DNA from: Ricordea florida
Taxonomy: Eukaryota > Cnidaria > Anthozoa > Corallimorpharia > Ricordeidae
Direction: 5' to 3'
DNA: 64,000 bases
NCBI GenBank assembly: GCA_949710005.1
Contig: OX453274.1
Location: 15,225,695 to 15,289,694 of the forward strand
Part shown: piece after piece, positions 22,074 through 61,060 of the stretch
Layout of the letters: every line of letters starts with the position of its first letter
How positions within the stretch are numbered: the stretch's first letter is position 1
Translations under genes and position numbers: made by a program
The notes under the pieces: generated by a model
The model's input: the letters and a program-made list of their open reading frames with translations, nothing else
Database searches by the model: none
What the model was told of the DNA's origin: nothing

Positions 22074-22079
22074 CTGCAA

Positions 22080-28567: not shown

Positions 28568-28620
28568 GGTGTTGTTGAAAATGTGGACGATGATACTTTA
28601 TGCTTGTGTTTATACTTTTT

Positions 28621-28959
28621 CTAGTGTTTCTTGAAGGCACCGACTAACAAATCTATGGCCGCGGGAATCAGCAGGGAAGCCAGGGTGGCCAAGAATCCTC
28701 CACGTTGATTCAAGATGTTCTTTTTGTGCTTGACAGAGGTCTTTTTCTTGGCCAAAGGCCTCATTTTCTTGGCTTCTTCTTTCAATCTCATTAACTTGGC
28801 GCGACTTAATGGGATGTTTCCTTTCAACAGATTTAAAGATACTTCACTCAATGTGTCAAATTGATCCTTGGTGGCTTTTTGAATGAGACGTTTACGTAGG
28901 GCTGGTGTGCTCTTCACAAGCGTTTGTAAAAACCGTGCGTTTCTTCCTAAGCGGTCCAT
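28621..28959 (-). CDS. Small conserved Polinton protein with hydrophobic C-terminus
   Basis: 112 codons starting MDRLGRNARFLQTL. It has a basic helical region (KSTPALRKRLIQKATKDQFD), a Lys-rich middle, then the glycine/hydrophobic end GGFLATLASLLIPAAIDLLV. Proteins of this layout recur in Polintons. The terminal amphipathic stretch suggests membrane or capsid-interior contact, by analogy only. Intact. Confidence 0.7.
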   Translation of the reverse strand: MDRLGRNARFLQTLVKSTPALRKRLIQKATKDQFDTLSEVSLNLLKGNIPLSRAKLMRLKEEAKKMRPLAKKKTSVKHKKNILNQRGGFLATLASLLIPAAIDLLVGAFKKH

Positions 28960-28974
28960 GGTGGAATGACGGAA

Positions 28975-36452: not shown

Positions 36453-37637
36453 CACGGTACCACGTGAATCTTGTTTCTGAAGTGAAGTGTTACTGTCACT
36501 GTTCCTGCATAGAATGGAACTTCTTTCTCTGCATCAAGCTTTAAAGCAATTTCTATTTCGCGTAAACGTTGCTCATGAAGCATCAAACCACGGTTCAATA
36601 TTCAAATTGGATTCAACAAAAAAGGACTCCACAGGTCGATAAGCAACAGGTATATATTTCCTTACCCCGTGGGGTGGATCGATATAAAAAGTCCAGGCTT
36701 CTTCTTGAGGTAAACAAACAAACATGAGATGGGGAAGAGACGAATCGATTCGAAACCGTCCATCCCTGTTAGGCGGTCTAATGTTGTCATTGTTATCCAC
36801 AAATCCCAGGATGCGTGCAAACGGTAACGAAATCCTGAATGTGGCTCCTGGTTGAAGATCAAAACGAAATTTTTCTTGCTCGTATCTCATAGCAATATCA
36901 ACGAAGAAATGAGTCTTGGCCAGGTTCCTCAAAATAATACGAAAACGATGAGAATAGTAATCAATCACATCAATAAAATGGGAAACCAATTTTGTGTCCA
37001 GGTGTTGTTAACACAAAGTCCACATCATTCTCAGTCGCTTCAATAATTCCCATCGTTTCATCATCATCATTGGTGAGTTCAAACCAATGTTTCCCTTAAG
37101 GTATCTTGAATCTATCCGTTTGGTTTGCGAAAGGTGGTACCACCGTATAATCTTGGGCTTGTAACACATCTGAAGAGTCGGGATGTCTCGAAGCGACAAA
37201 TCCCAATAGTCTGGCCATGGGTAATGGGAATCTAAGAGTTCGATCCGCTGGAATGTTCCATCGAGCCTTTCTTGTGGCTGGTTGGTAATTGGATTCGATT
37301 TGATTCTCAGCTAAATCATGCACCATGGCATCCGTGACATGTTCAAACACACTGTAGTAACCAGGATAGGGAGCAGGAGGGAGTTTTTTGGTGACAAAAG
37401 GTTCCCTTCTCCAGTACTGTACTGCCAACTCACACCATGTTTCTCGTCCAGGGATACTTTTCTGGGTTGATACCATGTTTTAAAAAACACAATCTCAGTG
37501 AGTCCAACTTCCCAGTCTCCTTGCAATAGAATCTCTTGAGGCAGCTCGATTTTGTAATGATGAGGTCTGTTATCCAAAAAACGATCATTGAGGGTGTTGC
37601 TTGGAAGAATCAAGTAGAAATCCTCTTGTGCCAACAT
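36452..37637 (-). pseudogene. Penton-like minor capsid protein, copy 1 (broken, divergent)
   Basis: Begins MLAQEDFYLILPSNTLNDRF with GDWEVGLTEIVFFKTWYQP. It passes through several frames (37476, 37199, 36989 pieces, including FPLMARLLG- and FARILGF-type repeats) and ends VTVTLHFRNKIHVVP just before 36452. It appears to contain two related internal blocks (RFPLPMARLLGFV and RISLPFARILGFV), so it is longer than the other copies. Confidence 0.7.
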
Positions 37638-37681: not shown

Positions 37682-38910
37682 TTACACATCTTTCATGTAA
37701 TGGGCGGAAATCCATTGATCATATTTACTTGGCCACCCTCTCCATCGTACTAAATATTCTTTTCTACGACCCGTCCCTTGAGTATCGAGAATTTGTTCCA
37801 CTTTGAAAAAATCATCCTCCTTGATTCGAACTCGTTCCAGTTCAGGTTCATAGAACATGCCTTTTAACCATGTCCCGTCATATTCCTTTATCGATAGGTG
37901 GGTACTGTGGTACGATTACGTCTGGCCACGGTAAACACTTCTTCCGTCCAATTGGGTGTGAAACCCTTTTCAAAGATACCTCTCTCTTTGGAGATACGTA
38001 CCTGATCCCCCACTTTAAACTTGAAACGCATCCGTTTGACTCGTTTCACAAAATTGTCTCCATACAAATAACGCCATACATCTTGAGCATTGGCCTGGGT
38101 GACAAGGTTGGGAGCAGTTCCTATACTGCGATGTTTTGAACTATTGTAACTTTTCACCAAATCATCCAACACATCCAAGTAACGATAATGATTCACTTGA
38201 GTAAAATATCGCCACATGCGTCCTTTGATGGTTCTGTTCCACGATTTGGGCTTTGGTTTTACTGTAGGTAACAAAATGATCCACGTGTTTGGATTCCAAA
38301 ACTTTTGAAACTGACGGTTCGTGAATTCTGTTCCTTTATCCGTTTGCGAACGTTCAGGGATGCGTTCATCTTGTTTAAAAATGTGATCAAAAGCTTCCAC
38401 CAAACTTTTACCCGTTTTGTTTTTCAAAGGTACCACCCAGGGATATCTGGAGAGAACATCAATGACGGTCAAAAAATAACGAAATCCATTATTCTCCTCC
38501 TTCAATGCTTGTACATCCACAAGATCCGCTTGCCATTGTTCATCCATACCATTGACCACCACCCGACTGCTTCTAAACTGCTTTCGCACAGGTTTGTGTA
38601 ACGTATACGGAAACTGAGATTCGAGCCATTTCCTGGCTATGGAGGGTTTGATTCCTTTGACGCGAGCGGTACCAACCAATCGCTTGGCGCCAACAAACGC
38701 AGGAGGTTTCCCTGGTTTGTAGTACAATCTTTCTAGCATGGGTATGGATTGTCTTTCCGTCTTCACTTCTGCCGCCGCGTCTTCATACTCTTCTTGATCG
38801 TCCGAAATTTCAATCACATTTCCTTTACAACAGGCAATATGACACCTTATCCGTTTAAACAAGTTTCTCAACGTGAGAGAAGGTAGAGATCCACGTCCCA
38901 AGCAAGGCAT
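37682..38910 (-). pseudogene. Retroviral-type integrase with C-terminal chromodomain
   Basis: An N-terminal acidic linker is followed by the catalytic core: first Asp in WQADLVDVQ, second in SQTDKGTEFTNRQF, then GRMWRYFTQVN. The segment that should hold the catalytic Glu (about 38245-38300) is read out of frame between two compensating frameshifts; the IVE block survives in the alternative frame. A third frameshift near 37895 separates the chromodomain (EYLVRWRGWPSKYDQWI). Integrase joins element ends to host DNA, and the chromodomain would target chromatin. Inactive as read. Confidence 0.88.
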
Positions 38911-42841: not shown

Positions 42842-43032
42842 GGTCAGTAGTTCATGTATGACCCAAAGACCCCATGAAATGTCCTGAGCTACTACAATTA
42901 CTACACTTTTTCACTACAGTTACTTCTATGCCTAGAGTAGCTGTAGTAAGTGAAGAAGCTGTATAAAGTGTAGTAATTGTAGTAGCTCAGGACATTTCAT
43001 GGGGTCTTTGGGTCATACATGAGCTACTGACC
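42842..43032. mobile_element. hAT-like foldback MITE with 8-bp target duplication
   Basis: A 191-bp hairpin whose arms, at least 65 nt long (GGTCAGTAG-T/C-TCATGTATGACCC inward), are nearly perfect complements. It is flanked on both sides by GATCTTTG (42834-42841 and 43033-43040). An 8-bp duplication is the hAT signature. It is nested inside the 3.3-kb transposon. Confidence 0.9.
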
Positions 43033-47292: not shown

Positions 47293-47300
47293 TATATAAA
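47293..47300 (+). promoter_or_regulatory. TATA box of the RING gene
   Basis: TATATAAA lies about 100 nt upstream of the RING start codon and within the gap between the divergent polymerase-side genes and the RING gene. The sequence CAAACCAGTTTTAAACCGG just before it resembles blocks repeated near 50790-50860. Confidence 0.6.
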
Positions 47301-47401: not shown

Positions 47402-48064
47402 ATGCCGAAACGAAGACAACAGAGCCAAAGAGGTGCTGCCAGAAGACCAGCAACAAGTTCTTTATCTTCTTCCAGCGACCCTGTATCGCCTTCGCCTTCT
47501 GGTTCGTCCCATATGTTTAATTTAAATTTAATCAACGAAGCCGGACCATCCGCTGATCCTGTAACACCATCTACATCCGCTGATCCTGTGACACCACCAT
47601 CTGTTTCTGCCGATGTTGATGCTGATGTGATGCCACCTGAAACAACTCAGCAACAGCCGGTCAACCAGGAACCAGGAGCAGTTGCAGACAATCCTCTGAA
47701 CATACCGCGAGATCCACCCATTGACGGTCCTTGTCTTGTTTGCTTTGATGGAAGCTCATCACCACCCACACCATGCTGCAAAAAGCCACTGTGCGATTCT
47801 TGCCTGAAACATTGTTTGGACAGTACACGGTTCGATTGTCCTCATTGCAGGAACAAATTGCCATCCACGTACATTATGACCTCTGAAGAAGCCACAGATG
47901 CCCTCTTACAAGACCCAGAGTTCCAAAGAAGGATTCGTCTGGTAAGAATTGACTTGAATACAATCATAATAATTTTATTAGTCATACTTGCTCTGTGTTT
48001 CCTGGCCAAAGCCATTTATTATATTTACTCGGCAACAAGAAATGTACAATCTCGTTTACCTTAA
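47402..48064 (+). CDS. RING-type zinc finger protein, unspliced form with transmembrane tail
   Basis: ATG at 47402 (MPKRRQQSQRGAARRP): a basic N-terminus, a Ser/Pro/Thr-rich linker with DPVTP repeats, then the zinc domain at about residues 120-158 (CLVCFDG ... CCKKPLCDSCLKHC ... CPHC), consistent with a RING-like ubiquitin ligase fold. Residue 180 (Leu, CTG) is followed directly by GTAAGA, a strong splice donor in phase 0 at 47942. Without splicing, the frame adds LNTIIIILLVILALCFLAKA, a membrane helix, and stops at 48064. With splicing, eleven alternative tails follow. TATA at 47293. Confidence 0.85.
   Translation: MPKRRQQSQRGAARRPATSSLSSSSDPVSPSPSGSSHMFNLNLINEAGPSADPVTPSTSADPVTPPSVSADVDADVMPPETTQQQPVNQEPGAVADNPLNIPRDPPIDGPCLVCFDGSSSPPTPCCKKPLCDSCLKHCLDSTRFDCPHCRNKLPSTYIMTSEEATDALLQDPEFQRRIRLVRIDLNTIIIILLVILALCFLAKAIYYIYSATRNVQSRLP
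47942..47947 (+). promoter_or_regulatory. Shared 5' splice donor of the RING gene
   Basis: CTG|GTAAGA after complete codon 180. All eleven downstream acceptors listed below restore an open frame in this phase. Confidence 0.8.
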
Positions 48065-48076
48065 TTTTTTTTTTAG

Positions 48077-48262
48077 ACTTATAATGAACTGATACTGAGT
48101 ATGAAGGATAAGCCAGAACGAAACTTGAAATGTTCCAACCTTGATTCGATCGTCAAGATGTTATTGCAAAAAGCCCTTTGTATAGGTTTTAATTTATGGG
48201 ATGATTATAAGCCAATGGATTATTGTGAAAGACGAGTCCTTTTTGATTCGCTCATTGGTTAA
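48077..48262 (+). CDS. RING gene alternative C-terminal exon 1
   Basis: The acceptor (T)10-AG at 48075-48076 lies right after the unspliced stop codon. The phase-0 frame of 61 codons starts TYNELILSMKDKPERNLKC and ends CERRVLFDSLIG, then TAA. The end resembles exon 6 (RTRDYLFDCRRIG). Confidence 0.7.
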   Translation, partial: TYNELILSMKDKPERNLKCSNLDSIVKMLLQKALCIGFNLWDDYKPMDYCERRVLFDSLIG

Positions 48263-48332
48263 TTTTTCTTTTTTTCTTTATGCCTTGATCAAACTCAAAG
48301 CAACCAAATCAACTCTTAAATATAAGTTACAG

Positions 48333-48485
48333 CAGCAAAATAGAATTATAGCCAACCCGTTTCGATTTTTTCACAACTACTATACTATAAGAGAGCTTTT
48401 GGAGAGTGCTACAAGTATTGATGTTATACACAATCCATCATTTGTAAAGGAAGTTTGTGATATTGTATGTATGCGCCATTGTTAA
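48333..48485 (+). CDS. RING gene alternative C-terminal exon 2
   Basis: A phase-0 frame of 50 codons after TTACAG (48327-48332): QQNRIIANPFRFFHNYY to VCDIVCMRHC. The polypyrimidine tract is weak; an AG six nt earlier gives the same phase. It is the least certain acceptor of the array. Confidence 0.45.
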   Translation, partial: QQNRIIANPFRFFHNYYTIRELLESATSIDVIHNPSFVKEVCDIVCMRHC

Positions 48486-48502
48486 ATCTTTTTTTTTTTG
48501 AC

Positions 48503-48612
48503 GTGAGGTTAGGGGTGGCTGTAAGGGGAGGATGGAGGCCACACTGTAAATAAAAAAAAGAAGCGTTATTCTGTGAGGTTAGGGGTGGCTGTAAGGGGAG
48601 GATGGAGGCCAC
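48503..48612 (+). repeat. 40-bp direct repeat pair before tail exon 3
   Basis: GTGAGGTTAGGGGTGGCTGT... at 48503-48542 and identically at 48573-48612, spaced 70 bp. Each copy begins GTGAGG, itself donor-like, and lies just upstream of the exon 3 acceptor. Confidence 0.9.
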
Positions 48613-48642
48613 TAAGAAAAATAACTTTTCTTTTTTTTTCAG

Positions 48643-48726
48643 ACCATGGAGCATATGGTATCATGCATACAGGTTGTCCCAAACACTGAAATTCGTTTAC
48701 ATTTGTATGTACAATATTGTGATTAA
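48643..48726 (+). CDS. RING gene alternative C-terminal exon 3
   Basis: Strong acceptor cttttctttttttttcag. The phase-0 frame TMEHMVSCIQVVPNTEIRLH to QYCD has 27 codons, then TAA. The shortest tail. Confidence 0.65.
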   Translation, partial: TMEHMVSCIQVVPNTEIRLHLYVQYCD

Positions 48727-48771
48727 AAAAACCTTTTTATTTATTTTTTATTTTTTTTAATTTTTTTTTTT

Positions 48772-48796
48772 GGGGTGGGGGGTACCCCCACCCCCC
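48772..48796. promoter_or_regulatory. G/C palindromic block, copy 2
   Basis: GGGGTGGGGGGTACCCCCAC plus CCCCC, a near-perfect palindrome able to form a stem or G-quadruplex in RNA or DNA, between tail exons 3 and 4. Role unknown. Confidence 0.5.
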
Positions 48797-48847
48797 TCAT
48801 CAATGTCTTTAAAAAATATTATTTAATAGACTTTTTTTCTTTCTTAG

Positions 48848-48955
48848 GTGATGAGTAATATCATAAACATTCAAATACCTCATAATATTGTTGTCACCAT
48901 GAAAGTAGGAGATAATGAATATAAGATTGTCAATCTTTACAAACAAACTCTATAA
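48848..48955 (+). CDS. RING gene alternative C-terminal exon 4
   Basis: The acceptor is ttttttctttcttag, and the phase-0 frame has 35 codons: VMSNIINIQIPHNIVVTMKV to VNLYKQTL, then TAA. Confidence 0.65.
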   Translation: MMSNIINIQIPHNIVVTMKVGDNEYKIVNLYKQTL

Positions 48956-48976
48956 ATTGTCTTTTATATTTTCCAG

Positions 48977-49138
48977 ATGTATCCAGAAACACGCTATAAT
49001 CAATCAGAACTACGAATCGACAGATCATTTATAGTCTTTAAAGAGATACGTGAATGGGAATATTCCATGTTACATATTCACAAAGAACTTGTGCTTGATT
49101 TTTACTCAAAACAGTTAAAAGACCCTCTTTTTTCATGA
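48977..49138 (+). CDS. RING gene alternative C-terminal exon 5
   Basis: The acceptor is cttttatattttccag. The phase-0 frame has 53 codons starting MYPETRYNQSELRIDRSFIV, then a charged helix, ending KQLKDPLFS and TGA. It contains the LRIDRSF version of the motif shared with exons 6 and 7. Confidence 0.7.
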   Translation: MYPETRYNQSELRIDRSFIVFKEIREWEYSMLHIHKELVLDFYSKQLKDPLFS

Positions 49139-49179
49139 AGAGAGAACACACATCTTATAGTTTTTTTACCTTTTTACAG

Positions 49180-49353
49180 ATGGTTCGAGCAATTGATGCT
49201 TGTTCAAGTTACATAACTAATAAATATCAAGAACTAGTGGGTGCTCCTATGACTCAATTTGATCTGTTTGATGCTTATAGCCTGTTACGTACTCGTGATT
49301 ATCTATTTGATTGTAGAAGGATAGGTTTTCGTTTATTAACTGATCCTTATTAA
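49180..49353 (+). CDS. RING gene alternative C-terminal exon 6
   Basis: The acceptor is tttttacctttttacag. The phase-0 frame has 57 codons: MVRAIDACSSYITNKYQELV to LLRTRDYLFDCRRIGFRLL, then TAA. It could also start at its own ATG, because the exon begins with it. Confidence 0.7.
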   Translation: MVRAIDACSSYITNKYQELVGAPMTQFDLFDAYSLLRTRDYLFDCRRIGFRLLTDPY

Positions 49354-49376
49354 AAAAAAAAAAATTATCATTACAG

Positions 49377-49532
49377 ATAATGAATGAAACCGTTGACTTT
49401 ATGACATTTGTTATGCATGATTAATACAGTAATTTCAATGGCTATAGTCCACGTGATTATCACACCTTGAGGATTCGTGAAACATTCGATTTTTGTTATC
49501 TAATACTTTGTGGTTTTTTTCGTCCATCGTGA
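49377..49532 (+). pseudogene. RING gene alternative C-terminal exon 7 (frameshifted)
   Basis: The acceptor is attatcattacag. The phase-0 frame opens IMNETVDFMTFVMHD and stops after 15 codons. A neighbouring frame continues YSNFNGYSPRDYHTLRIRET to 49532. The second part matches the exon 5/6 motif, so a small indel probably broke this tail. Confidence 0.55.
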
Positions 49533-49554
49533 ATTTTAATTTTTATTTTTGTAG

Positions 49555-49701
49555 ATTTATTACATGCCTGCTGAATGTGCAAGATATGTTATGGATAAAC
49601 ACAATCAAGCAACTTTACAAGTTGCCAAACTTAGTCTTCAGGAGATATATCTTGACATATCTTTCATCATGAGTGGAATCGAATGGTGTAACACATTATA
49701 G
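49555..49701 (+). CDS. RING gene alternative C-terminal exon 8
   Basis: The acceptor is tttttatttttgtag. The phase-0 frame of 48 codons is IYYMPAECARYVMDKHNQAT to SGIEWCNTL, then TAG. Confidence 0.68.
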   Translation: MYYMPAECARYVMDKHNQATLQVAKLSLQEIYLDISFIMSGIEWCNTL

Positions 49702-49726
49702 TTTTTTTTCTTTTTTTTTTCCCTAG

Positions 49727-49885
49727 ATAAATATAAAAACTGGAGAGTTTACAAGTTTTCTTCGTAATAGATATGGTGTTCCCAATTTACGGGATGCAGA
49801 GGTACCAGTCATTGAACATATTTGTGAAGATTTAGATGTAGTAAGCCGAAGGTTATGGCTTGATTTTATGAGAAAATTCAAATAA
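49727..49885 (+). CDS. RING gene alternative C-terminal exon 9
   Basis: A very strong tract (ctttttttttttccctag). The phase-0 frame has 52 codons: INIKTGEFTSFLRNRYGVPN to RLWLDFMRKFK, then TAA. Confidence 0.7.
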   Translation: MNIKTGEFTSFLRNRYGVPNLRDAEVPVIEHICEDLDVVSRRLWLDFMRKFK

Positions 49886-49909
49886 GTTTTTTTTCTTTTT
49901 TTTTGCCAG

Positions 49910-50116
49910 GATGAAGATAGTGATGATAGTGATAGTGAACTGTTATTTCATTTAGCACAATGTCAATGTGATGAATGCCAACAAGATGTAGATCAATATA
50001 ATTATTGTGGCTGTGATTGTAGTTACTGCTGCCATATGGTTGATGAGATGGATTATTGTGATTTTAAAGGTTGTAATGCTCTCTTCTGGCACGTCAATGT
50101 CTTATCCTTAGAATAA
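49910..50116 (+). CDS. RING gene alternative C-terminal exon 10 (Cys/Asp-rich)
   Basis: Strong acceptor ctttttttttgccag. The phase-0 frame has 68 codons: an acidic run DEDSDDSDSELLFHLAQ, then a cysteine-rich stretch (CQCDECQQD ... CGCDCSYCCHM) that looks metal-binding, ending NVLSLE and TAA. Composition is unlike the other tails. Confidence 0.7.
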   Translation, partial: DEDSDDSDSELLFHLAQCQCDECQQDVDQYNYCGCDCSYCCHMVDEMDYCDFKGCNALFWHVNVLSLE

Positions 50117-50193
50117 AAAAAATATTTCCTTTTTTATTATTTATTAAAAAAAAGATTTTGAATGATAAATTGTGTGTTTTATTTATCTGTTAG

Positions 50194-50304
50194 GAATGCA
50201 TTCAAATGTCATTTAAACCCATTCTACCATTCATTTCTCTTCATTTGAGAGAATGCCTAAGAGGCGACGCATTTAGAGATACACAAGAGTGTTCAAGTGA
50301 ATAA
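50194..50304 (+). CDS. RING gene alternative C-terminal exon 11
   Basis: The acceptor is tgttttatttatctgttag. The phase-0 frame has 36 codons: ECIQMSFKPILPFISLHLRE to TQECSSE, then TAA. The DNA also contains ATGCCTAAGAGGCGACGC in another frame, which may be the start of a degraded basic protein. Confidence 0.55.
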   Translation, partial: ECIQMSFKPILPFISLHLRECLRGDAFRDTQECSSE

Positions 50305-50340
50305 GACAGTACGGAGGCAAACAAAGCAGATTAAGAAAGT

Positions 50341-50586
50341 GGGTTAATCGTTACAGACGCCCTCCACCTTTTATTGGCACTTGGTGATGATGGTAGCAAG
50401 AAAGAAAAAAAAAGAACACAAAGAAGAAGAAGGCGCACCATGTGTAGTAGAGAACTTTCAGTAGCTGAAATCAAAAACAGAGCGGTAAAAAAATATGGCA
50501 AAGGAACCTATGCATACAGAATGGCAAGCTCCGGACTAAAGCCAGCGGTCTCTTTTGTAAATTGGCTCGGTGGAAAAATACACTAA
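50341..50586 (+). CDS. Small basic protein at the right end of the Polinton
   Basis: Open frame with a run of basic residues (KKEKKRTQRRRRR), then MCSRELSVAEIKNRAVKKYG and GLKPAVSFVNWLGGKIH. The start is unclear: there is no upstream ATG in frame after the stop at 50332, the first internal ATG is at 50437, and a spliced start is possible. Likely a nucleic-acid-binding virion protein, by composition only. Confidence 0.5.
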   Translation, partial: GLIVTDALHLLLALGDDGSKKEKKRTQRRRRRTMCSRELSVAEIKNRAVKKYGKGTYAYRMASSGLKPAVSFVNWLGGKIH

Positions 50587-50654
50587 TAAAAACAACATGA
50601 AATGTACCATTGTTTTATTTACGCTCTCGTTCCAAATATGGTGTGGGGGGTTAA

Positions 50655-50765
50655 TAAGCCCAAACCCAGTCCACCCCGGTCAGAACCCAGTCTACTCCGT
50701 CCAAAACACGCTCAAACCCAGTCCACCCCGGTCAGAACCCAGTCCACCCCGTCCAAACATTTCAA
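50655..50765 (+). repeat. Two-copy tandem repeat
   Basis: A unit of about 50 bp (CAAACCCAGTCCACCCCGGT...CCAGTC-ACTCCGTCCAAA) occurs twice with few changes. Located just outside the last Polinton ORF; may belong to its terminal region. Confidence 0.75.
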
Positions 50766-50906
50766 CAGCCAATCAGAAGCCTCTATTTGTTCTCAAACCG
50801 GTTTGGCCAATTTGCTTACTCGTCAAACCGGTTTTTCCATTTGCATAACCGGTTTGACCAGTATGCTAATTTTTCAACAGCCAATCAGAAGCCTCCATTT
50901 GTTCCA
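50764..50906 (+). repeat. Direct repeat and AACCGG motifs
   Basis: CAACAGCCAATCAGAAGCCT at about 50766 and again at about 50879. Between them are three AAACCGGTTTG-type boxes. Similar CCGGTTT boxes lie near 27928 (beyond the left end) and 47270 (RING promoter), so they may be element control sites. Confidence 0.55.
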
Positions 50907-50984
50907 TAGTGTCCCCCTTTACTACTCCTACTATTCACTCTAATAAGATTGTGAACTGCATGGCTGCAATTTGCGCCTTAATAA

Positions 50985-51091
50985 GCAATCTGGCAAAGTC
51001 TCCCACAAAAGTGCTGTAAAGCGCTTTGAGCCTTGGGATAAAGCGCTATATAAATGCGTCGTTATTTCTATTATCATTATTATTATTATTA
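50985..51091 (+). mobile_element. LINE 3'-tail fragment
   Basis: agtgctgtaaagcgctttgagc followed by gcgctatataaatg and (ATT)n, the same type of 3' end as at 31480-31548. Confidence 0.6.
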
Positions 51092-51534
51092 AATAAAAAT
51101 TGAGCTCAGACGCCAGCAACTACGGACAGCTATTTCGGCCTGGTTAGGCCTCATTAGCATGGCACAGCTAGCAAAAGAGCTCTGAGTTCCCACATGATGA
51201 AAGTCATTGTGATGAAAAATGGTACAGTTGTGGGATGTGGCTTGAAATGACAACGTCAAAATGTAGTAAGGGTATGTTAAGGCCATACATATGCGCAATG
51301 AGGCGACAGTGGTAGAAGGGATAAAACCCTATTGCTACCAAAGATCTAGAGGCCGAAACCAAAAGTTCAATCAACGTGTTATTTTCATTTCGCTTTTTGA
51401 AATTCGCATCAGTGTGTATATGCGGGCTTAATGTGTAACGTGAAACAAGAAGAAATGATTTATTTGGTATGGCACCTTACAGACTTTCTGACTTGTAACA
51501 ATACATCGCCTTGTTCAATAAATTTACTACCTAC

Positions 51535-51846
51535 CTCCTAACACCTTTACTCTCTTAATTTTCTCCAATTCTTTGATTCCTTCCCCAAACTTGTTTGTAG
51601 CCGTGATAATGAATTCGTATTCTTTGCCTTTCACTAATTTGACAACATATTCCCGAACTAAAACATTGGTGATAATATGGAGTCTTTCCCATACTCCAGT
51701 GGTACCATCTTCATTCACAGTTCTTTGGTAAACAGTGTATTGAGTGATGGCTGCACCATTGTTATCTGGTTCATTCCATTTCAACGTTACTTCGTCAACC
51801 TCCACCTCACTTGGCAGGTCAACAACTTCAGCTGCTGCTGGTGCAC
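51535..51846 (-). CDS. Receptor tyrosine kinase, fibronectin type III exon
   Basis: A 104-codon exon encoding one FN3 domain: VDEVTLKWNEPDNNGAAITQ (Trp and Pro core), YTVYQR, then EYEFIITATNKFGEG, the classic Tyr/Ala-x-Asn/Gly end. Both splice sites are phase 1 (acceptor cacttag, donor GTAGGT), as usual for extracellular modules. Its exit phase fits the TM exon at 23759. The intron between them is about 27.8 kb and holds the Polinton. Further ectodomain exons should lie beyond the window or are unrecognised. Confidence 0.88.
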
Positions 51847-51848
51847 CT

Positions 51849-52727
51849 AAGTGATGTCACAGTAAACATGTCCGTTATAGCATTTTTCTGATAGCAAAGT
51901 CAAATAACTTTCGACGAGTGTTAGCACTTCGAACTCGAAACATCAGAGATTAAATGAACTATCTTTGCACAAATATGATTCCAGGAGGTGTTCACTCCCC
52001 AACACATTGCTCTGGTCTGTAAGAAATGCTGCGCGCAGAGCCCCTGAATTGACGATTTGAAGAGTTAACTCGTCATGTACGCGGTAATTATCACATTATT
52101 TTCCCTCAATCGGTGAAACTGGTCATGGCAAATAAAACGTTTGGTTTGGGTGTTAAAGCGTTAGTGTGACAAGAATGCTTTTAAAAAGAAGAATTTTTAG
52201 TCATGCCACGTTCACACCAATTTAACTTGCTTAGTTCAAATAGATCTAATCTTTGCATGCTTTGAAAGCATGTGGGTTTAATCATCGTGAATGGAAAACT
52301 GAAATCGTAGTAACTACGTTAGAAGTAGCAACATTCCTTACAAGTCCCTGTCCATAACGATACACCTAGCAACAAATAGCAAAACTCTTTAACTGTCCAC
52401 TTGTTTCCAACAGCTGCAAACTCTGCTATCGTTTCTGAGATAAATAGGTGAGTATGGGAATATATAGCAATTATTTTCGGCACTGTTTTTAACAGAGTAA
52501 GTGCCAGAAAATACAAGCACCCGATAATTTCAGAGATCCAAACTTAAAAAGTCCGAAAAAAAGGTTGCATCCTGGGTTCGATGTAAGAAATCAACCAGAA
52601 AAACTGGATGGAGATGGAGATAAAAATTGGTGTTATAATTTTTTGACGACTATTACATATGCGTTAGTGATCAAGCGTGAGATCAAGATGGCTGTATATT
52701 GGCCGACTTCTTTATTGCGTTATTATT
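51849..52727. other. Intronic sequence, no gene
   Basis: Only short ORFs without domain features on either strand. Confidence 0.4.
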
Positions 52728-54011
52728 CAGGGGCACCCAACGAATGATTTCGGTAAAATATCTGTTCGAATGTAAGGTCGCCTAAATTTTTCGGAAAATT
52801 TCTCCTCAAGGGAAAGAACACGTTGTCTTGATTTTCGGAAAAAAAATTGCCCTAGAATTTGCGTAATTTAGGTGGTCGAGAAAAAGTTGTTCAAGACTTT
52901 TCGTAAACAGTTAGTCAACAGAAAGTTACCCTAGAATTTTCGTTCGAGTTACAACTCGCAATTTCTGGACGTCGTCCGCAAGTTAGGGATGTATAACGCA
53001 TGGGTGCAGAAAATCGAAGCAAGATTTATCCGAGAAGGCAGTCCAAATTCACCAAATCAGAACGTCTTTGTTTAACGTTGTACTCACGTACTGACTTGAA
53101 CGACCTGGTAAGCTTAATTCTCACAGTCTTTATGCTGTTGACCGACCATTCCGACGCGATAAAACTTAGGTCATCCTCATATTTTTTTTTTTTCGTTTAG
53201 CGTCGAATGCGTTTTCTGATATTGGGTCGGTCGGTCGGATTGAAAAAAAAAAGAAAGTTAAAAAAAAAAGTAATAAGAATTATTTCAAGTGAAAAATGGT
53301 CCAACTACGTACTGAGTTACTTTTTTTTAAATGCCAAAAATTTAGGTTGGTCGGACGACGCTAAACGGAGAAAGAAAATAGGATGGCCTTAACGCTTATG
53401 GATAAGCTGGATATGTTTATACTAGATTTGTTTTCTCCTTGTTTAAAACGCTTTTCCGCGATCAAATTAAAAACTGGAAATTTTATCGGTTTCAAACATG
53501 TATAGGTAATAATAATAAACATTCACCTTACATCTAACTGATCTAAGTGATCTGAATGCTTTATTTTTCTAAGTTATGGAAGATATGGTCGACGGTAATG
53601 TCGGCTTCTTTGTCTCTGTTCAGTAGCGTGTGATTTCTTCCCCTAATACTTTCGAATAAAAAAGTTACTCCCCTGCAATCTTCGGATGCGCGTTACGGTT
53701 TGCCTAAAATTTTCGGAATCTCTTCATAGACGCAAGCTTTTACAAAAAGGTCTCCTAAAAATTTCTAACGACAGCAATGCTAGCACGAGTTCTTCATTTT
53801 TCGAACAGACCTATAAAGGTAGCTAAGACTTTCGGATGAGCCAAAAAGGCCGCCTAGGATTTTCGAGACGAACACAGTTCCCCTAAGAAATCCGAACAGA
53901 TAGATAGTTTTTAGGGCAGCTCCAAATTAATGAAACGGGCTTCTAAAATAGAAAATTCTATTTAAGGCACTTCTGAGGTATTTGGAAAAATTTGGTCGTT
54001 GGGTGCCCCTG
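52728..54011. mobile_element. Non-autonomous DNA transposon, hAT-like ends
   Basis: Terminal inverted repeats CAGGGGCACCCAACGA (52728 inward and the complement ending at 54011), flanked on both sides by ATTATT. The interior carries many dispersed variants of CCTAAAATTTTCGGA in both orientations, like hAT subterminal repeats. No transposase. A smaller element is nested at 53168-53393. Confidence 0.75.
53168..53393. mobile_element. MITE nested in the hAT-like element
   Basis: Imperfect terminal inverted repeats (ggtcatcct...ttcgtttagcgtcg at the left; complement at 53353-53393) enclose A/T-rich non-coding DNA. Confidence 0.55.
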
Positions 54012-54332
54012 ATTATTGACCGAGACATGGTCATAGAAAACGAACGAGGGCAATATACATGTACAACCATCTTGACCGAACAAGCTTCGTCAATAAAAGA
54101 TCTATTATACGGCCATTTTGCTTTGTTTTAATTCGAGGGACAACGCGGATAATCCCCAACGTTAAAGATAGGCTAATATTGTTCGCTCGGGTAGCCAATC
54201 AGAACTCAGGACTTGCTTCATCTTACCCCCTCGAAGAAACAGCCATGTAATAAAGTGTCATAATCATACTACTGTAAGCAGGTATCTGGAAACTTGGAAT
54301 GCGACCGGCGCTTTCTGTGTGGGTTATTTTAT
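54012..54332. other. Sequence left of the BEL element, no gene
   Basis: No supportable gene. It does not match the missing 5' half of the left LTR. Confidence 0.5.
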
Positions 54333-54518
54333 TACGATTATTTTAGTTCTCCATTTTCTTCTAGAACCGTTGGATTTAGTTTAGTTGTTCGTTATCTCGT
54401 ACGGCAATTATTTTCTCTAAGTACCAATTACCACGTTTATACGTTCAATATGCCAATGTTGCTATGATGATTGTTAGTTTAAGTAAGAACATGTTTAATT
54501 GTTGTTTTCAGTTCGAAC

Positions 54519-54567
<49 letters not shown>

Positions 54568-54855
54568 CACTACTACTATTACTACTACTACTTCTACCAC
54601 TGCTACCGCTACTATTGTCATCGCTACCGTTTCCCAGCACTACTAGTATCGTTACCGTTAATACTATTGCTATTGCAACGCATCGTTATTGGTTTACGAT
54701 CAATGGTCCGTAATGTTGTGAAACAGAACCTTTGAACTGTGATTAAACCTGTTAGTATCAAGTGGAGTTCGAATCGTCTATTGCCTCGCACCTCGCTACC
54801 CCTGTAATTATTAAGATTGGAGTATCACGCGACCTCAAGAGTCTTAATAGTTACA
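54333..54855 (+). repeat. Left LTR of BEL element, 5'-truncated
   Basis: Matches 61729-62230. It ends ...AATAGTTACA. It contains a (TAC)n tract of about 48 nt (54521-54568). The first ~550 bp of the LTR, including its TG end, are absent. Confidence 0.9.
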
Positions 54856-55072
54856 TTAGTTCGAATTTGATCGCGAACATTGTTCGAAAGGCTATCTTCC
54901 GATTGCGAAGGAATTTAGAACACGTCACGTTGTAGGAAACCACGCAATCACCGTCCCACAGTTAAGCTGTCATCGCGTCTAACGCCGGATGTGATATCGC
55001 TTCTTGGCGTCGCCTAAATCGTATTACCTTTCAGATAACAAGACCGCTAATAGTAATTGAATTATCGCGAAC

Positions 55073-58000
55073 ATGGAAACAAAGAAAGCACGTGGCATTG
55101 CAAGAGCGGTCGTGACCAGAAAGGTCAAAGAAATTATCGAGTTGATGAAAGATGAGAACAATCTTGAACTAGTTAATGAAAAATTCGCCCGGCTTCAGGA
55201 AGCCTTTGAGAACTTTCGATCTATGCACGAAGCATTCCATGTTCAATTAAGTGATGAGGAAGCTATTGAAGAATCAGAGGCTTATTTTGAGCTGGTTTTG
55301 AATCAAGTGAAACAGCTTGAAGATAACGTTCTGCTTTGGTCAACCGGCATAGAGGCTTCAAGAGCAGTTAGGTCTTTCGATGTTCATCCAGATGATAGCG
55401 TTTCAAATGTCGAGTCCCTGCATGAGTCTGTAACGTCACGCAAGTCTGTTTCTCGGAGCACAGTTTCGGATGATAGAGCTAAGGCGGCCGCGAAAAGAGC
55501 AATTTTAGAAGCTGAAGCTGCCACGCTAAAAAAGTTGCACCAGATCGAGGAGGAAGAGTTGAAATTGCGCCAGCGAAAAAACGAGCTCAAACTCGAGACA
55601 GAAATGGCGAAGGCCGAAGAAATCGCGTTCAGTCAGGCAGTACAGCAAGTAAGGACGGCGCGCGAAGTTCAAATAAGAGAAAACAAGCCGGCTAAGTTGC
55701 ATGCTAATGTAGGCCTTAATGAAGGACACGCCCCATGTAGAAATTCTTTAATGAAGGACTCTACCACTCCCGATTTAAGAAATACAAGTGGTCAACCGGA
55801 CAGAAACTCGTCCAGTGTCGTGAAACAAAGTAGGCTATACACTCCACGCCATAACGCCCTAGCTAGGTTCCCAATAACCAGCCAACATCAATTAAGCGCA
55901 GAGGCTCCAGAATGGCGATATGAAGGGTCGATGCAACCCGACCGCGACGCGGTTGTTAGCAGTACTCCGCAGGCACCCCTCGCTTCCGATCAAAACAAGC
56001 ACATTCAACTGCTCCTTCAGCAACAGCAAGAAGCAATTATGGCACTGACCCTTCCACAACCTGACCTCCCCGTTTTTGGTGGTGATCCCATAGAGTACTG
56101 TGACTTTATTAGAGCCTTCGAAAACCTCATCGAAAGAAAGACGAGTAGCGCAAGCGCTAGGCTCTATTACCTGGTGCAGTATACAAGCGGCCAAGTTCGA
56201 AACCTTGTGCGAAGTTGCCTAGCGATGAGAGAGGACGAAGGCTATAGGGAAGCTAGAAGATTACTGGGAGAGAGGTACGGGCAACCATACAAGATTGCAA
56301 GCGCGTATGTCGACCGCCTCATCAATGGCCAGCCAATCAGGGCCGAAGACGGCGCCGCACTTCAGAACTATTCTGTGTTACTAACTAGCTGCAGCAACAC
56401 GCTCCAACAGATTGGCTATATGAACCGCCTGGAAAACCCAGAGGGTCTCAGAAAAATAGTAGACCGGCTGCCATACAATCTTAGGCTAAAGTGGCGCGAA
56501 ATAGCAGACAACATTACTCAGAGGGACAAAAGAGATGCCACCTTAAAGGATATCACCGAGTTCGTAGAAGCAAGGTCTAGAGTAGCAAATCACCCTATCT
56601 TTGGCAAAGTGTCCGTCGCAGAACAGAAGACTGGCAACACCAGCGACAAGGCAAGGCACAGGAAGAGTGTGAGAGCCTTTGCAGTTCAAGGTCAGCGTGA
56701 GGTCTTAAGCGGTAACTCAGGGAACAGAGGTCCGGTCAAGTGTCCGTTTTGTGACAAGAATCACTGGCTGTCACAATGTAACGATTTCAAGAAGCTGCGC
56801 GTAAGCGACCGTTATAAGCTAGTTTACGCTAAGAAGCTTTGCTGTAATTGCTTGGTGGCTGGACATTTCGCAAGGGATTGTCCAAAGAAAAGCTTTTGCC
56901 GCATTCAAGGATGCACGAAAAAGCACTCCACGTTCCTCCACCTTAAGGAAAACAGTATGGAACCACAATTCGGCGGTGAAGTAAACGACGGCAACGCAAA
57001 TCGCACCGAGCCCGCGGAGAACGCCGCACAAGTGAACAACGCCTACGTTCAAGGTGAGACCTGTCAAGCTTCAAGCAGCCCGTCGGTTGTAGCACTGTCG
57101 ATACTCCCCGTGCGAGTAAGAGCAAAGGGTCAAAAGAAGCACGTTGTCACTTATGCGTTCCTCGACTCCGGCTCAAACACCTCCTTTTGTACAGAGAGTC
57201 TACTGAGCAAGCTCAAGGTCAAGGGAAAAAGAACCAGTCTCTCTCTTACCACAATGCAAGCCACGAACCAGGCGATTGAGTGTTCTGTCGTCAATCTTGA
57301 AGTTTCTGGCCTGAACGACGACAAAACTATTGAGCTACCGTTGGTCTACTCCAGGCCAACTCTCCCCGTGTCAACCGACACAATCGCAACCCAGAAAGAT
57401 GTGAAGCGCTGGCCTCACCTGAGTGGCATTGAAATACCAACCGTCGACGCCGAGATTGGTCTCCTGATTGGCAGCGACGCACCACAAGCCCTGCAGCCAA
57501 CAGAAATAAGACAAAGCAAGGATAATGGTCCTTTCGCTATTCGCACAGCTCTCGGTTGGGTGTTAAACGGCCCCATTGGAAGAACGGGAGCCGAAGTCAC
57601 CATCGCGAATTTTATTGATACCAACGCCGAGTTAAGCAAACAGTTCGAGCAATATTGTAATGTAGAATTCAATGATTCAACATACGAACCCAAAACATCA
57701 ATGTCGCAGAATGACCGCCGCGCTCTAGAAATGATGAAAGGTACAGTCAAACTATCAAACGGCCACTATGACATCGGCCTCCCTTGGAGGAACAACCCGC
57801 CGCATCTACAAAGTAACAGGACCCAGGCTGAGCGCAGATTACAGCTGTTGAAAAAACGTCTCCAAAGAGATGATGCCCTTTGTAGCAAATACAAGGATTT
57901 CATGTCCGACTTGCTACATAGGAAGTATGCAAAGAAAGTGAACGCCGAAGAGCTTGCACAAACAGACACATGGTACCTACCGCATCACCCGGTTTTCCAT

Positions 58001-61000
58001 CCACAGAGGCCTAACAAGGTCAGAGTCGTATTTGACTGCTCTGCAAAATATCGTGGCTCCTCCTTAAATGATCAGCTGCTACAGGGGCCGGATCTAACAA
58101 ACACGCTAGTCGGCGTCCTAACGCGATTCCGCCAAGAGCAGGTTGCATTTATGGCAGACATTGAAGCTATGTTTTACCAAGTTCGAGTTCGCCCCAGTGA
58201 CCGCAATTATTTGCGATTTCTCTGGTGGCCAGATGGAGACCTAAACACAGAGCCAGAAGAGTATCAAATGTCAGTACATCTGTTCGGCGGCGCCTCATCT
58301 CCCAGCTGCGCGAATTACGCTCTAAAGAAAACAGCAGAAGATAACAAGGAAGATTTCGACGCAGTCACAGTCGAGACCGTTAAGCAAAATTTCTACGTTG
58401 ATGACTGCCTCCGATCAGTTGCAACAGATTCGAAGGCTGTTCGCTTGGTAGGACAACTTCGCGACTTATTGTCAAGGGGTGGTTTCCGTCTAACCAAATG
58501 GATATCTAACTCTAAGAAGGTCGTTAACTCCATTTCGGAATCAGAAAGAGCGCCTGCAATAAGGGATCTTGATTTTGAAGAGAATGCAGTGCTAATTGAA
58601 CGAGCGCTAGGTGTTCAATGGAACGTTCACGAAGACTCGTTCACATACAAGATAGCCAAGAAGACCAAACCCGCCACAAGAAAGGGAATACTTGCAATCA
58701 TCTGTTCAATTTACGATCCACTGGGTTTTATATCTCCGTGTATCCTACCGGCCAAGTTAATCCAGCAAGACTTGTGCCGCAGGAAAATTGGTTGGGACGA
58801 ACAGGTTCTAGAATCTAGCAACCGCAAATGGCAAGCTTGGCTTAAAGATCTCCCTAAGCTCGAGAGATTCAAAATACCACGATGCTTTAGACCACCAAAC
58901 TTCGCTGAGGTTCAGCAAAGCGAGCTTCACCACTTCGCCGACGCTTCTGATCAGGGTTACGGAGCTGTATCGTATCTCCGTGAAATTGACGCAAACGGTA
59001 AAATTCACTGTTCGCTGGTTATGGCCAAGTCCAGGTTAGCACCACTTAAAACAATCACAACCCCAAGAATGGAATTATCTGCTGCAGTCTTAGCCGCACG
59101 ACTGGATCGGATGATCAGGCAAGAGCTTACTCTGCCCCTCGCTACATCAACGTTTTGGACAGACAGTACTTGTGTCCTGCGTTACCTAGGAAACAAGGAC
59201 GCGAGATTCCAAACGTTCGTTGCGAATCGCGTATCCGCCATATTGGATCAGTCCGAGGCCGCGCAGTGGAGACACGTAGACACCTCACTTAACCCCGCTG
59301 ATGATGCATCAAGAGGAACGACAATCGATGACCTACTGAACAGTGAACGTTGGACTGAAGGACCCCCGTTTCTAAGGCAACCAAAAGAAACATGGCCACA
59401 GGGACCTACCGATCTAGGGAGGATCCCAGACGACGACCCAGAAGTAAGGAAAAACGTAGAAGTGTTTGCTAACCAACAAACCCATCATGGCGATCATATC
59501 GATAAAGCGCTTGAGAAGTTCTCATCGTGGACTCGCCTTAAGAAAGTCATCGCGTGGACTCTGCGTTACATAAAGAACATACAAAAACAGATCCAAAGGC
59601 GAGGAGTGAAAAACAAAACCGTCTGCTATCAGTCATCACTCAGCGAAATCACGCTTCTAAGTGTTAATGAGATAAAGGAAGCAGAAACAGCAATCATCAA
59701 GTACGTTCAGAAGCGCGGTTTTGAAGAAGAATTAATTTCCTTCAGCAATTCGAGTAAACAGAAACAAGAGCAAGGCAGCACAGTTAAGAAAAGTAGCAGT
59801 ATATACAAGCTCAACCCGATCCTGAAGGACGGAGTCATACGAGTCGCTGGACGTCTACGACACGCACCACTCGAGAATGAAACGAAACACCCTGTCATCC
59901 TGCCAAAGAAACACCACATCGTGAAGCTGATAATTGATTGCTACCATCGGGCTTCTGGTCACTCTGGAGTTGAATACACTCTGTCATTAATCAGACAAAG
60001 ATTTTGGATTATGGGAGCACGATCTAGCGTACGCAACATAATTAACAGGTGTTTTGACTGCCGAAGACGCCAAGCACCAGTGATGCAACAAAAAATGGCA
60101 GATCTACCAGAAGATCGCATAACACCTTCCAAGCCGCCATTCACGTACGTGGGCGTGGACTGTTTCGGTCCATTTACAGTTCGTCGCGGCCGGACCACCG
60201 CAAAGAGGTACTGTGTACTATTCACCTGTCTCACAATTCGTGCAGTTCACGTCGAGGTCGTTCAGTCTATGGATACTGAATCTTTCATCAATGCATTGAG
60301 ACGCTTCATCGCCAGGAGAGGACTACCACACGAAATCAGGTCAGATAACGGAGGAAACTTTGTAAGGGGCGAGAGAGAGTTACGGGAAGCACTGGAATCG
60401 TGGAATCAAGCCCAGATTCACGAGTTCCTATTGCAACACGAAATCAGATGGATATTTAACCCACCTGCAGCATCCCACCATGGAGGAGTATGGGAGAGAT
60501 GTATCCGTACGGTGAGGAAAGTGATGAAGGCACTTCTAAGGGAGCAAACCTTGGACGATGAAGGTCTTAACACACTGATGTGCGAACTTGAGTCCGTTGT
60601 AAATGGAAGACCCATCACCAAGGTTTCTGACGATCCAAGAGATCTAAACGCCCTGACGCCTAACCATTTACTACTCCTTCGAGCAGGACCAGCCATTCCC
60701 CCCGGAGTGTTCGAGAAGGAGGACAACTACAGCCATCGAAGGTGGCGCCAAGTGCAGTATCTGACCAATGTATTCTGGCGTCGATGGGTCGGAGAGTATT
60801 TGCCATCATTGCAGCAGCGACAAAAATGGAACAAGCCGCAGAGAAACTTAGCCATAAATGACGTTGTGCTGCTTCTTGACGAAAATACACCCTGCAGTGT
60901 ATGGCCACTAGGACGAGTGTTGGAAGTGTACCACAACCGCAAGGACGGGCTAGTACGTTCAGCCAAAGTGCAGACCAAGTTGTCAGTACTAGTGAGACCT

Positions 61001-61060
61001 GTGGACAAGATTGTTCTCCTCGAGACTGCTGAAGTGGACGATCAAGGAGTAGACAGTTAA
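55073..61060 (+). CDS. BEL/Pao Gag-Pol polyprotein, intact
   Basis: 1995 codons from METKKARGIARAVVTRKVK. Coiled-coil N-terminus; gag-like region (LPQPDLPVFGGDPIEYCDFI, about 325); zinc knuckles CPFCDKNHWLSQC (about 557) and CCNCLVAGHFARDC (about 589); aspartic protease AFLDSGSNTSFC (about 694); RT with FMADIEAMFYQVRV (about 1026) and the catalytic FYVDD (about 1107); Pao-type RNase H HHFADASDQGYGAVSY (about 1286); integrase zinc HH-CC (HRASGHSG...CFDCRRRQ, about 1625); core with GVDCFGPF, RSDNGGNF and HGGVWERC (1692-1802); and a C-terminal WRRWVGEYLPSLQQR domain. The gene has no lesions and could be active. Confidence 0.96.
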   Translation: METKKARGIARAVVTRKVKEIIELMKDENNLELVNEKFARLQEAFENFRSMHEAFHVQLSDEEAIEESEAYFELVLNQVKQLEDNVLLWSTGIEASRAVRSFDVHPDDSVSNVESLHESVTSRKSVSRSTVSDDRAKAAAKRAILEAEAATLKKLHQIEEEELKLRQRKNELKLETEMAKAEEIAFSQAVQQVRTAREVQIRENKPAKLHANVGLNEGHAPCRNSLMKDSTTPDLRNTSGQPDRNSSSVVKQSRLYTPRHNALARFPITSQHQLSAEAPEWRYEGSMQPDRDAVVSSTPQAPLASDQNKHIQLLLQQQQEAIMALTLPQPDLPVFGGDPIEYCDFIRAFENLIERKTSSASARLYYLVQYTSGQVRNLVRSCLAMREDEGYREARRLLGERYGQPYKIASAYVDRLINGQPIRAEDGAALQNYSVLLTSCSNTLQQIGYMNRLENPEGLRKIVDRLPYNLRLKWREIADNITQRDKRDATLKDITEFVEARSRVANHPIFGKVSVAEQKTGNTSDKARHRKSVRAFAVQGQREVLSGNSGNRGPVKCPFCDKNHWLSQCNDFKKLRVSDRYKLVYAKKLCCNCLVAGHFARDCPKKSFCRIQGCTKKHSTFLHLKENSMEPQFGGEVNDGNANRTEPAENAAQVNNAYVQGETCQASSSPSVVALSILPVRVRAKGQKKHVVTYAFLDSGSNTSFCTESLLSKLKVKGKRTSLSLTTMQATNQAIECSVVNLEVSGLNDDKTIELPLVYSRPTLPVSTDTIATQKDVKRWPHLSGIEIPTVDAEIGLLIGSDAPQALQPTEIRQSKDNGPFAIRTALGWVLNGPIGRTGAEVTIANFIDTNAELSKQFEQYCNVEFNDSTYEPKTSMSQNDRRALEMMKGTVKLSNGHYDIGLPWRNNPPHLQSNRTQAERRLQLLKKRLQRDDALCSKYKDFMSDLLHRKYAKKVNAEELAQTDTWYLPHHPVFHPQRPNKVRVVFDCSAKYRGSSLNDQLLQGPDLTNTLVGVLTRFRQEQVAFMADIEAMFYQVRVRPSDRNYLRFLWWPDGDLNTEPEEYQMSVHLFGGASSPSCANYALKKTAEDNKEDFDAVTVETVKQNFYVDDCLRSVATDSKAVRLVGQLRDLLSRGGFRLTKWISNSKKVVNSISESERAPAIRDLDFEENAVLIERALGVQWNVHEDSFTYKIAKKTKPATRKGILAIICSIYDPLGFISPCILPAKLIQQDLCRRKIGWDEQVLESSNRKWQAWLKDLPKLERFKIPRCFRPPNFAEVQQSELHHFADASDQGYGAVSYLREIDANGKIHCSLVMAKSRLAPLKTITTPRMELSAAVLAARLDRMIRQELTLPLATSTFWTDSTCVLRYLGNKDARFQTFVANRVSAILDQSEAAQWRHVDTSLNPADDASRGTTIDDLLNSERWTEGPPFLRQPKETWPQGPTDLGRIPDDDPEVRKNVEVFANQQTHHGDHIDKALEKFSSWTRLKKVIAWTLRYIKNIQKQIQRRGVKNKTVCYQSSLSEITLLSVNEIKEAETAIIKYVQKRGFEEELISFSNSSKQKQEQGSTVKKSSSIYKLNPILKDGVIRVAGRLRHAPLENETKHPVILPKKHHIVKLIIDCYHRASGHSGVEYTLSLIRQRFWIMGARSSVRNIINRCFDCRRRQAPVMQQKMADLPEDRITPSKPPFTYVGVDCFGPFTVRRGRTTAKRYCVLFTCLTIRAVHVEVVQSMDTESFINALRRFIARRGLPHEIRSDNGGNFVRGERELREALESWNQAQIHEFLLQHEIRWIFNPPAASHHGGVWERCIRTVRKVMKALLREQTLDDEGLNTLMCELESVVNGRPITKVSDDPRDLNALTPNHLLLLRAGPAIPPGVFEKEDNYSHRRWRQVQYLTNVFWRRWVGEYLPSLQQRQKWNKPQRNLAINDVVLLLDENTPCSVWPLGRVLEVYHNRKDGLVRSAKVQTKLSVLVRPVDKIVLLETAEVDDQGVDS

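Follow-up and report, generated by a model that had tools for sequence, protein, structure and literature searches.

The window analysed here is a stretch of 64,000 nucleotides (nt) from the corallimorpharian Ricordea florida (assembly GCA_949710005.1, contig OX453274.1, positions 15,225,695 to 15,289,694), and the locus in question is an array of short reading frames behind a RING-type head, within what is, judged by its sequence, a Polinton/Maverick-type (adintovirus-like) element. The element encodes a family B DNA polymerase (PolB; PF03175, E 2.7e-20) and an rve integrase (37888-38910; PF00665, E 8.4e-12). The head consists of a low-complexity N-terminal part, a RING domain at approximately residues 110-152 and a conserved end, EATDALLQDPEFQRRIRL, and runs in phase 0 into the splice donor CTG/GTAAGA at 47942, exactly as the original prediction had described. 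The eleven AG acceptors predicted behind this donor are all present at their positions, and each opens a phase-0 frame (61, 50, 27, 35, 53, 57, 15, 48, 52, 68 and 36 codons, in order). We call these frames tails 1 to 11 (t1 to t11), and the unspliced read-through from the head tail 0.

At ten of the eleven acceptors the longest of the three frames is the one in phase 0, the exception being 48642. A frame-blind acceptor rule (at least 13 pyrimidines of 19, C or T at -3, and an exclusion zone without AG) applied to positions 47960-50600 selected 10 of 153 AGs. Nine of these belong to the predicted eleven, the tenth being 50111; 48332 and 49376 were missed. At eight of the ten, phase 0 gives the longest frame. 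The phase agreement is beyond chance, as predicted; since phase permutation gives p = 0.0002 with the blind set and p = 0.0000175 with the predicted eleven, the figure of 1 in 3 to the 11th (5.6e-6) offered for it was somewhat too strong.

A search of the host genome (538 Mb, 48 contigs) returned 135 head matches. Merging those within 1.5 kb of each other leaves 102 places, a number in which a few interrupted heads appear twice. Forty other copies were compared, namely the 20 best after the window and 20 spread over lower identities (L026 and L029 are among those passed over). By head and tail similarity the copies fall into lineage A (the window and 22 close copies), lineage B (L058-L066), lineage C (L050, L055, L056, L067 and L068) and the single copies D (L051), E (L069), F (L070) and G (L057), the heads of lineage B being only 40-46% identical. 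GT stands directly after head residue 180 in all 40 other copies and is part of GTAAGA or GTAAGT in 38 of them; the two copies without it, L069 and L070, have the most distant heads of all, and in L070 the donor place was extrapolated by two residues. A TATA[AT]A motif lies within 160 nt upstream of the head ATG in all 36 places with the ATG motif found (window included), at a near-fixed spacing of -109 to -115 in 34 of them. For the possible common polyadenylation signal listed in Table 1, AATAAA is found at +3037 to +3073 from the donor in L031, L033 and L034, the three other close copies looked at, and AATAAA also occurs elsewhere within the array.

Conservation of the frames in related elements had been set beforehand as a test of the prediction, and in the 40 other copies the donor, the order of the tails, phase 0 and, mostly, the AG are retained. 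A tblastn comparison finds counterparts of t1, t2, t4, t5, t6, t8, t9 and t10, 29-59% identical, in lineage B with their order unchanged, t4 (37-42%, with AG before codon 1) and t5 (44-48%) in all nine copies. For t1, t4, t5, t6 (8 rows), t8 and t9 all B rows have AG immediately before codon 1, and for t10 six of the eight do. Profile comparison links t7 to the tail family B1844 and t9 to B2144, each present in 9/9 B copies, and the European Nucleotide Archive (ENA) protein P0003 is 89% identical to t6 across all 57 residues. Copies of lineage A that lack a tail are often the same ones (L032, L039, L041 and L047, for example), and their arrays end early.

Phase was also compared across lineages with the candidate open reading frames (ORFs) of five lineage representatives as a control. 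Start-anchored homologous pairs between lineages numbered 28 in phase 0 (74 ORFs), one in phase 1 (42 ORFs) and one in phase 2 (19 ORFs). In blind scans of other copies phase 0 was the longest at 18/23 acceptors in L058, 16/20 in L060, 17/23 in L056, 18/24 in L050, 9/11 in L069, 13/15 in L034 and 5/8 in L051, and the reverse strands of five loci gave no phase bias beyond one marginal p value of 0.04 (L058).

The window copy itself is partly decayed. Of its tails, t1, t3, t4, t6, t8, t9 and t10 look intact, t2, t5 and t7 are defective and t11 is doubtful. The AG at 48332 given as the acceptor of t2 exists, but it is not the conserved acceptor: AG occurs there in 6 of 35 other copies and in no B row, and in 35/35 other copies listed a conserved AG about 51 nt further upstream is followed by the same phase-0 frame. 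That AG is missing from the window. The last codons of t5 are out of frame relative to the ENA protein P0004 and similar copies, and the early stop of t7 is unique to the window copy, 18/18 other copies listed staying open past this point. The frame of t11 overlaps, in a different frame, a conserved small basic ORF whose C-terminal part is matched in 16 of the 23 lineage A places (window included) and in L069, and acceptor 50193 may therefore serve this ORF instead of t11. Table 1 collects the features.

Table 1. Features of the RING head and tail array in the window. A to E are lineages; fractions are copies with acceptor and phase-0 ORF, and the strict rule is the de novo rule of acceptor, phase-0 ORF and aligned start.
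Feature	Position	Strand	Remarks
TATA box of head	47293..47300	+	TATA[AT]A, -109 from ATG in window copy
Common head	47402..47941	+	540 nt, 180 codons, ATG at 47402
Shared splice donor GTAAGA, phase 0	47942..47947	+	CTG/GTAAGA, intron start 47942
Tail 0 (putative unspliced read-through)	47942..48064	+	40 codons; membrane-helix-like hydrophobic stretch; stop just before tail-1 acceptor
Tail 1 (t1)	48077..48262	+	61 codons + stop; 23/23 A, 9/9 B, 3/5 C, D
Tail 2 (t2)	48282..48485	+	conserved coding from ~48282, not 48333; 22/23 A (window the exception), 9/9 B, 4/5 C, D
Tail 3 (t3)	48643..48726	+	27 codons + stop; 18/23 A, D
Tail 4 (t4)	48848..48955	+	35 codons + stop; strict rule 19/23 A, 1/9 B
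Tail 5 (t5)	48977..49138	+	53 codons + stop; strict rule 18/23 A, 3/9 B
Tail 6 (t6)	49180..49353	+	57 codons + stop; 19/23 A, 8/9 B
Tail 7 (t7)	49377..49424	+	early stop here, homologous reading on to ~49529; 17/23 A; homologue B1844
Tail 8 (t8)	49555..49701	+	48 codons + stop; 19/23 A, 9/9 B; homologue in E
Tail 9 (t9)	49727..49885	+	52 codons + stop; 16/23 A; homologue B2144 in 9/9 B
Tail 10 (t10)	49910..50116	+	68 codons + stop, acidic then cysteine-rich; 17/23 A, 7/9 B; homologue in E
Tail 11 (t11), doubtful	50194..50304	+	36 codons; 7/23 A only; dN/dS 0.97 in 5 rows
Small basic ORF	50253..50384	+	MPKRRR start in many close copies; interrupted in window
AATAAA, possible common polyadenylation signal	50585..50590	+	+2643 from donor

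The ratio of nonsynonymous to synonymous substitution rates (dN/dS) was estimated from rows restricted to near full-length open frames, broken copies dropping out. For the last 85 codons of the head it is 0.07 in lineage A and 0.02 in lineage B. Tails of lineage B range from 0.16 to 0.47, with a pooled value of 0.28 over 13 tails, and the tails of lineage A pool to 0.48 over 11. The head and the lineage B tails are thus under purifying selection.

The row of tails changes by duplication, divergence and loss. Lineage B carries tails not present in A, and in lineage C four similar neighbours (C2158, C2337, C2507 and C2707) show matches among themselves and with t6, two also with t9. Fifteen tail exons were assigned in L058 and 11 each in L034 and L056. 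Over 375 exons, tails have a median length of 56 codons; the pyrimidine content recorded with them partly reflects selection by the scan rule. Twenty of 595 pairs of tail profiles reached a probability of at least 50, compared with none of 595 for column-shuffled controls. This homology appeared only with profiles from several lineages; for the window tails alone it is not clearly above that of shuffled peptides (best pair t4/t5, E 0.004 vs 0.007 for the best of 20 shuffles). The log-odds of amino-acid composition for coding were uninformative for several tails, and a search with six unrelated tails combined into one profile found relatives of t5 and t1, ENA proteins that are copies of the same genome. 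A similarity of t10 to cytochrome c3 in the PDB (E 0.09 and 0.57) was taken as a match of cysteine composition.

Some further observations concern the array. Among the close copies of lineage A (loci L031-L054) synonymous sites have diverged by 0.64 in the head vs 0.03-0.15 in t4-t10, which would fit an exchange of head and array from one element to another. Isoleucine is the first residue after the acceptor in 15 of 35 tail families, and a G-rich sequence of about 40 bases occurs twice between tails 2 and 3 (window 48508-48613).

We consider it very probable that the whole array constitutes one gene, in which one promoter and one RING head are served by a single donor that can be joined to any of about 10-15 phase-0 terminal exons. 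One promoter with alternative terminal exons is favoured by the conserved TATA box before the head, by the stop at the end of every tail and by the lack of a recurrent donor-like GTRAG in most tail families. The original idea of a single promoter producing a family of RING proteins that differ in the tail is supported by these features and by the conservation described above. The promoter would yield a pre-mRNA beginning with the head of a RING E3 ligase, and the donor at the end of the head would then be joined to any one acceptor in the row. Interchangeable tails require a shared phase; all acceptors being in phase 0, every choice would keep the RING and exchange only the C-terminal tail, of approximately 30-95 residues. 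Without splicing, a membrane-anchored version would be made in lineages A and B. The tails may act as adaptors for substrate or location, so that one ligase could reach many host proteins. As to whether the array is an evolving repertoire of splice-in targeting modules, by which a single promoter would give a panel of ligases, each directed at another host protein or membrane, we regard the chances as about even.

The assignment of the head to the RING type is based on similarity. A profile of the window head and the ENA protein P0002 matches RING chains in the PDB at E 4.9e-7 to 1.2e-5, including an Np95-like ring finger protein (4.9e-7), UHRF1 (2.8e-6), TRIM37 and RNF125, and P0002 matches zf-RING_2 in Pfam at 3.5e-4, short of the cutoff of that database. 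E3 ubiquitin ligase activity is a prediction from sequence. An AlphaFold2 model of the head (mean pLDDT, the predicted local distance difference test, of 48) was too weak for a structure search and was left unused.

The unspliced membrane-type isoform is likely, yet less certain than the spliced ones. Tail 0 is open for 38-46 codons in 22 of 23 lineage A copies (window included) and for 51-55 codons in 9/9 of lineage B; its stop lies at most 40 nt before tail 1 in 21/23 and 9/9 copies, respectively, frame 1 closes at once, and the peptide is hydrophobic, with a maximal Kyte-Doolittle value of at least 2.05 in 31/31 copies scored. The reservation is due to dN/dS values of only 0.62 and 0.53, to frame 2 of lineage B, likewise open over 6-64 codons and giving a hydrophobic peptide in 4/8, and to lineage C, where 4/5 copies have a 17-residue version.

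Several results weigh against the reading of the array as one alternatively spliced gene. The evidence is genomic sequence, and every comparison was made inside one genome; nor are the ENA proteins P0002-P0005 independent, since they match copies of the R. florida genome at 98.6-100%. The window head alone matches no Pfam family even at E 10; the curated Pfam cutoff is reached neither by seven window tails nor by nine spliced tails and a tail 0 from other lineages; and t10 has no match below 0.09 in the PDB. Two distant heads lack the array pattern, namely L070, without an array (phase 0 longest at 2/17), and L057, without phase bias (5/11) and with an inserted ORF of 485 codons. In lineage A the dN/dS of t5, t8, t9 and t11 is about 1 or above, lineage C pools to 0.58 over nine tails (few changes, few copies), and several PolB frames of lineage C are about as long as those of B. 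Donor-like GTRAG is found in 63 of 359 tail exons (30 nt past the stop included) and recurs in only five families: just after the t2 stop (window ~48500) in 20/22 A and 9/9 B copies, inside t9 in 8/16 A copies (as GTAAG at codon 38) and its homologue B2144 in 9/9 (GTAAG as well), in B3308 (6/8) and in B1844 (5/9). TATA[AT]A recurs within 150 nt upstream of t5 (18/18 A, 3/3 B), where in the window it coincides with the end of tail 4, and also before B2144 (8/9), B2745 (8/8), C2158 (3/3) and the t1 of lineage C (3/3).

The near-neutral tails of lineage A, the pooled value of lineage C and the defects of t2, t5 and t7 in the window would suit an array that is a relic, its frames persisting by descent from a recent amplification with no present function. 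This we consider unlikely, as tails that are 29-59% identical between lineages still retain phase, frame and mostly AG, the pooled dN/dS of lineage B is low, and long PolB frames (1184-1246 codons, one of them with an internal stop) stand beside five of the nine B copies. The suggestion made earlier that the tails be examined for purifying selection is thereby answered in favour of selection for the tails of B.

Quite unlikely, in our judgement, is an array of independent small genes, each with a start and promoter of its own, or a polycistronic row, in which the shared phase would be incidental. Methionine occurs within the first five residues in 14 of 35 tail families (seven of the 35 being known from the single copy L069), t5 and t6 start with methionine right at the acceptor, and the TATA motifs before t5, B2144, B2745 and C2158 could mark local promoters. 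Against this, 19 of the 35 families have no methionine in the first 15 residues, most have no recurrent upstream TATA, and the ORFs shared between lineages begin at the AG and in phase 0.

A head and tails joined in trans from separate RNAs, as in Drosophila mod(mdg4), would likewise combine shared 5' exons with many alternative 3' exons (PMC12692577), and TATA-like motifs do precede a few tails. We nevertheless hold this to be very unlikely for an array that spans 2-4 kb directly behind its head, with most tails lacking a recurrent TATA.

The alternation of open frames with acceptors, together with the GTRAG sites recurring after t2 and in t9/B2144, B3308 and B1844, might instead indicate that the tails are joined, constitutively or as cassette exons, into one long protein, which appears most improbable: each tail has its own stop, the GTRAG of t2 lies past that stop, and GTRAG does not recur in the remaining families (including t1 and t3-t8), where it is seldom seen or missing. 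The recurrent GTRAG sites alone rejoin no frames of successive tails. GTAAG is present in 39 of 41 real donors, and a nine-position donor score is no sharp test here, because 11 of these 41 reach only 6. Given the recurrent TATA[AT]A before t5, B2144, B2745 and C2158 and the GTRAG at t2 and t9/B2144, a local promoter at some of these tails, or additional splicing near t2 and t9, is possible within the single gene that we prefer. That the tails are DNA cassettes recombined next to the head, as in phase-variable surface proteins, is hardly credible in spite of the mosaic-looking copies with their unequal synonymous divergence, since the conserved donor and the pyrimidine-AG acceptors would be needless for cassettes and GT and an intron, not a tail, follow the head in 40/40 other copies.

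A common head with alternative 3' exons is found in the host genes mod(mdg4) and lola, both of which have BTB heads. In PMC12692577, mod(mdg4) of Drosophila is described as a constant N-terminal module combined with one of many alternative 3' exons, with more than 30 isoforms. By analogy this would be the closest known architecture: there as here a constant 5' exon with one donor faces several alternative terminal exons in one phase, the likeness being drawn, for the present array, from conserved DNA anatomy only. The present array differs from mod(mdg4) and lola in its RING head, its place in a mobile virus-like element and its compactness within 2-4 kb, and mod(mdg4) trans-splices from independent promoters. 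Among viruses, the parvovirus NS1/NS2 proteins and the polyomavirus T antigens share an N-terminus and acquire different C-termini by choice of acceptor; in contrast to these two to a few isoforms, there are here about 10-15 tail exons, which duplicate and turn over between lineages.

Viral RING E3 ligases include herpesvirus ICP0 and K3/K5, each one protein with one targeting region. As with these, the RING encoded here could in principle redirect host ubiquitin, and tail 0 resembles a membrane-anchored ligase; we know of no tail array in ICP0 or K3/K5. Like Polinton/Maverick and adintovirus elements, the element of this locus encodes both PolB and an rve integrase, and its PolB lies divergently upstream of the head. 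A literature search on viral proteins with shared N-termini gave nothing like the RING-plus-tail array, and none was found in the Polinton, Maverick and adintovirus literature searched, which takes in part of PMC11071296 and does not extend to the founding adintovirus paper. A viral contig collection searched with the head, the head alignment, PolB and the candidate capsid ORF described below yielded no relative, nor did a genome contig collection searched with the head alignment.

If correct, this reading would give a mobile element a compact route to many ligases from one locus, with splice phase enforcing modularity and the tail library growing by exon duplication. The roughly 100 copies in one genome provide material on splicing logic, exon birth and the targeting of host proteins. 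It also suggests that some accessory 'orphan ORFs' of Polintons may be exons of one gene, which bears on the annotation of such elements.

A scored PolB was found within 12 kb upstream of at least 65 of the 102 head places and on the opposite strand in 65/65, this number being a lower bound because only 78 of 1596 PolB candidates were scored. The ORF at 32242-33024 resembles a double jelly-roll major capsid protein (hexon), a candidate assignment for which Pfam and PDB sequence searches gave no match. The ends of this decayed copy of the element were not located: a comparison of 22000-30000 with 49000-56000 gave no exact inverted match of 16 bases, and no inverted pair joins both ends within 26500-52500.

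Elsewhere in the genome, at G000:C8:21370219-21387292, four PolB matches lie about 5,314 bases apart on one strand, as a tandem array of a piece of the element. In L057 (G000:C7:23240675-23245475) the array is broken soon after the tail-1 acceptor by the 485-codon ORF, the conserved donor preceding it, and by eye the inserted ORF resembles a reverse-transcriptase-like ORF at window 2170-3657. On the minus strand of the window, neighbouring ORFs at 33655-37637 have a common DFYLxLPSNAS-like start and are apparently a duplicated gene family of the element. A 68-nt inverted repeat, 99% complementary and with a 55-nt loop, is located at 42842-43032. About eight copies of a 69-base repeat occur at 4888-5448, partly within an ORF that we take to be Helitron-like, and an uninterrupted polyprotein frame of 1995 codons, presumably BEL/Pao-like, extends over 55073-61060.

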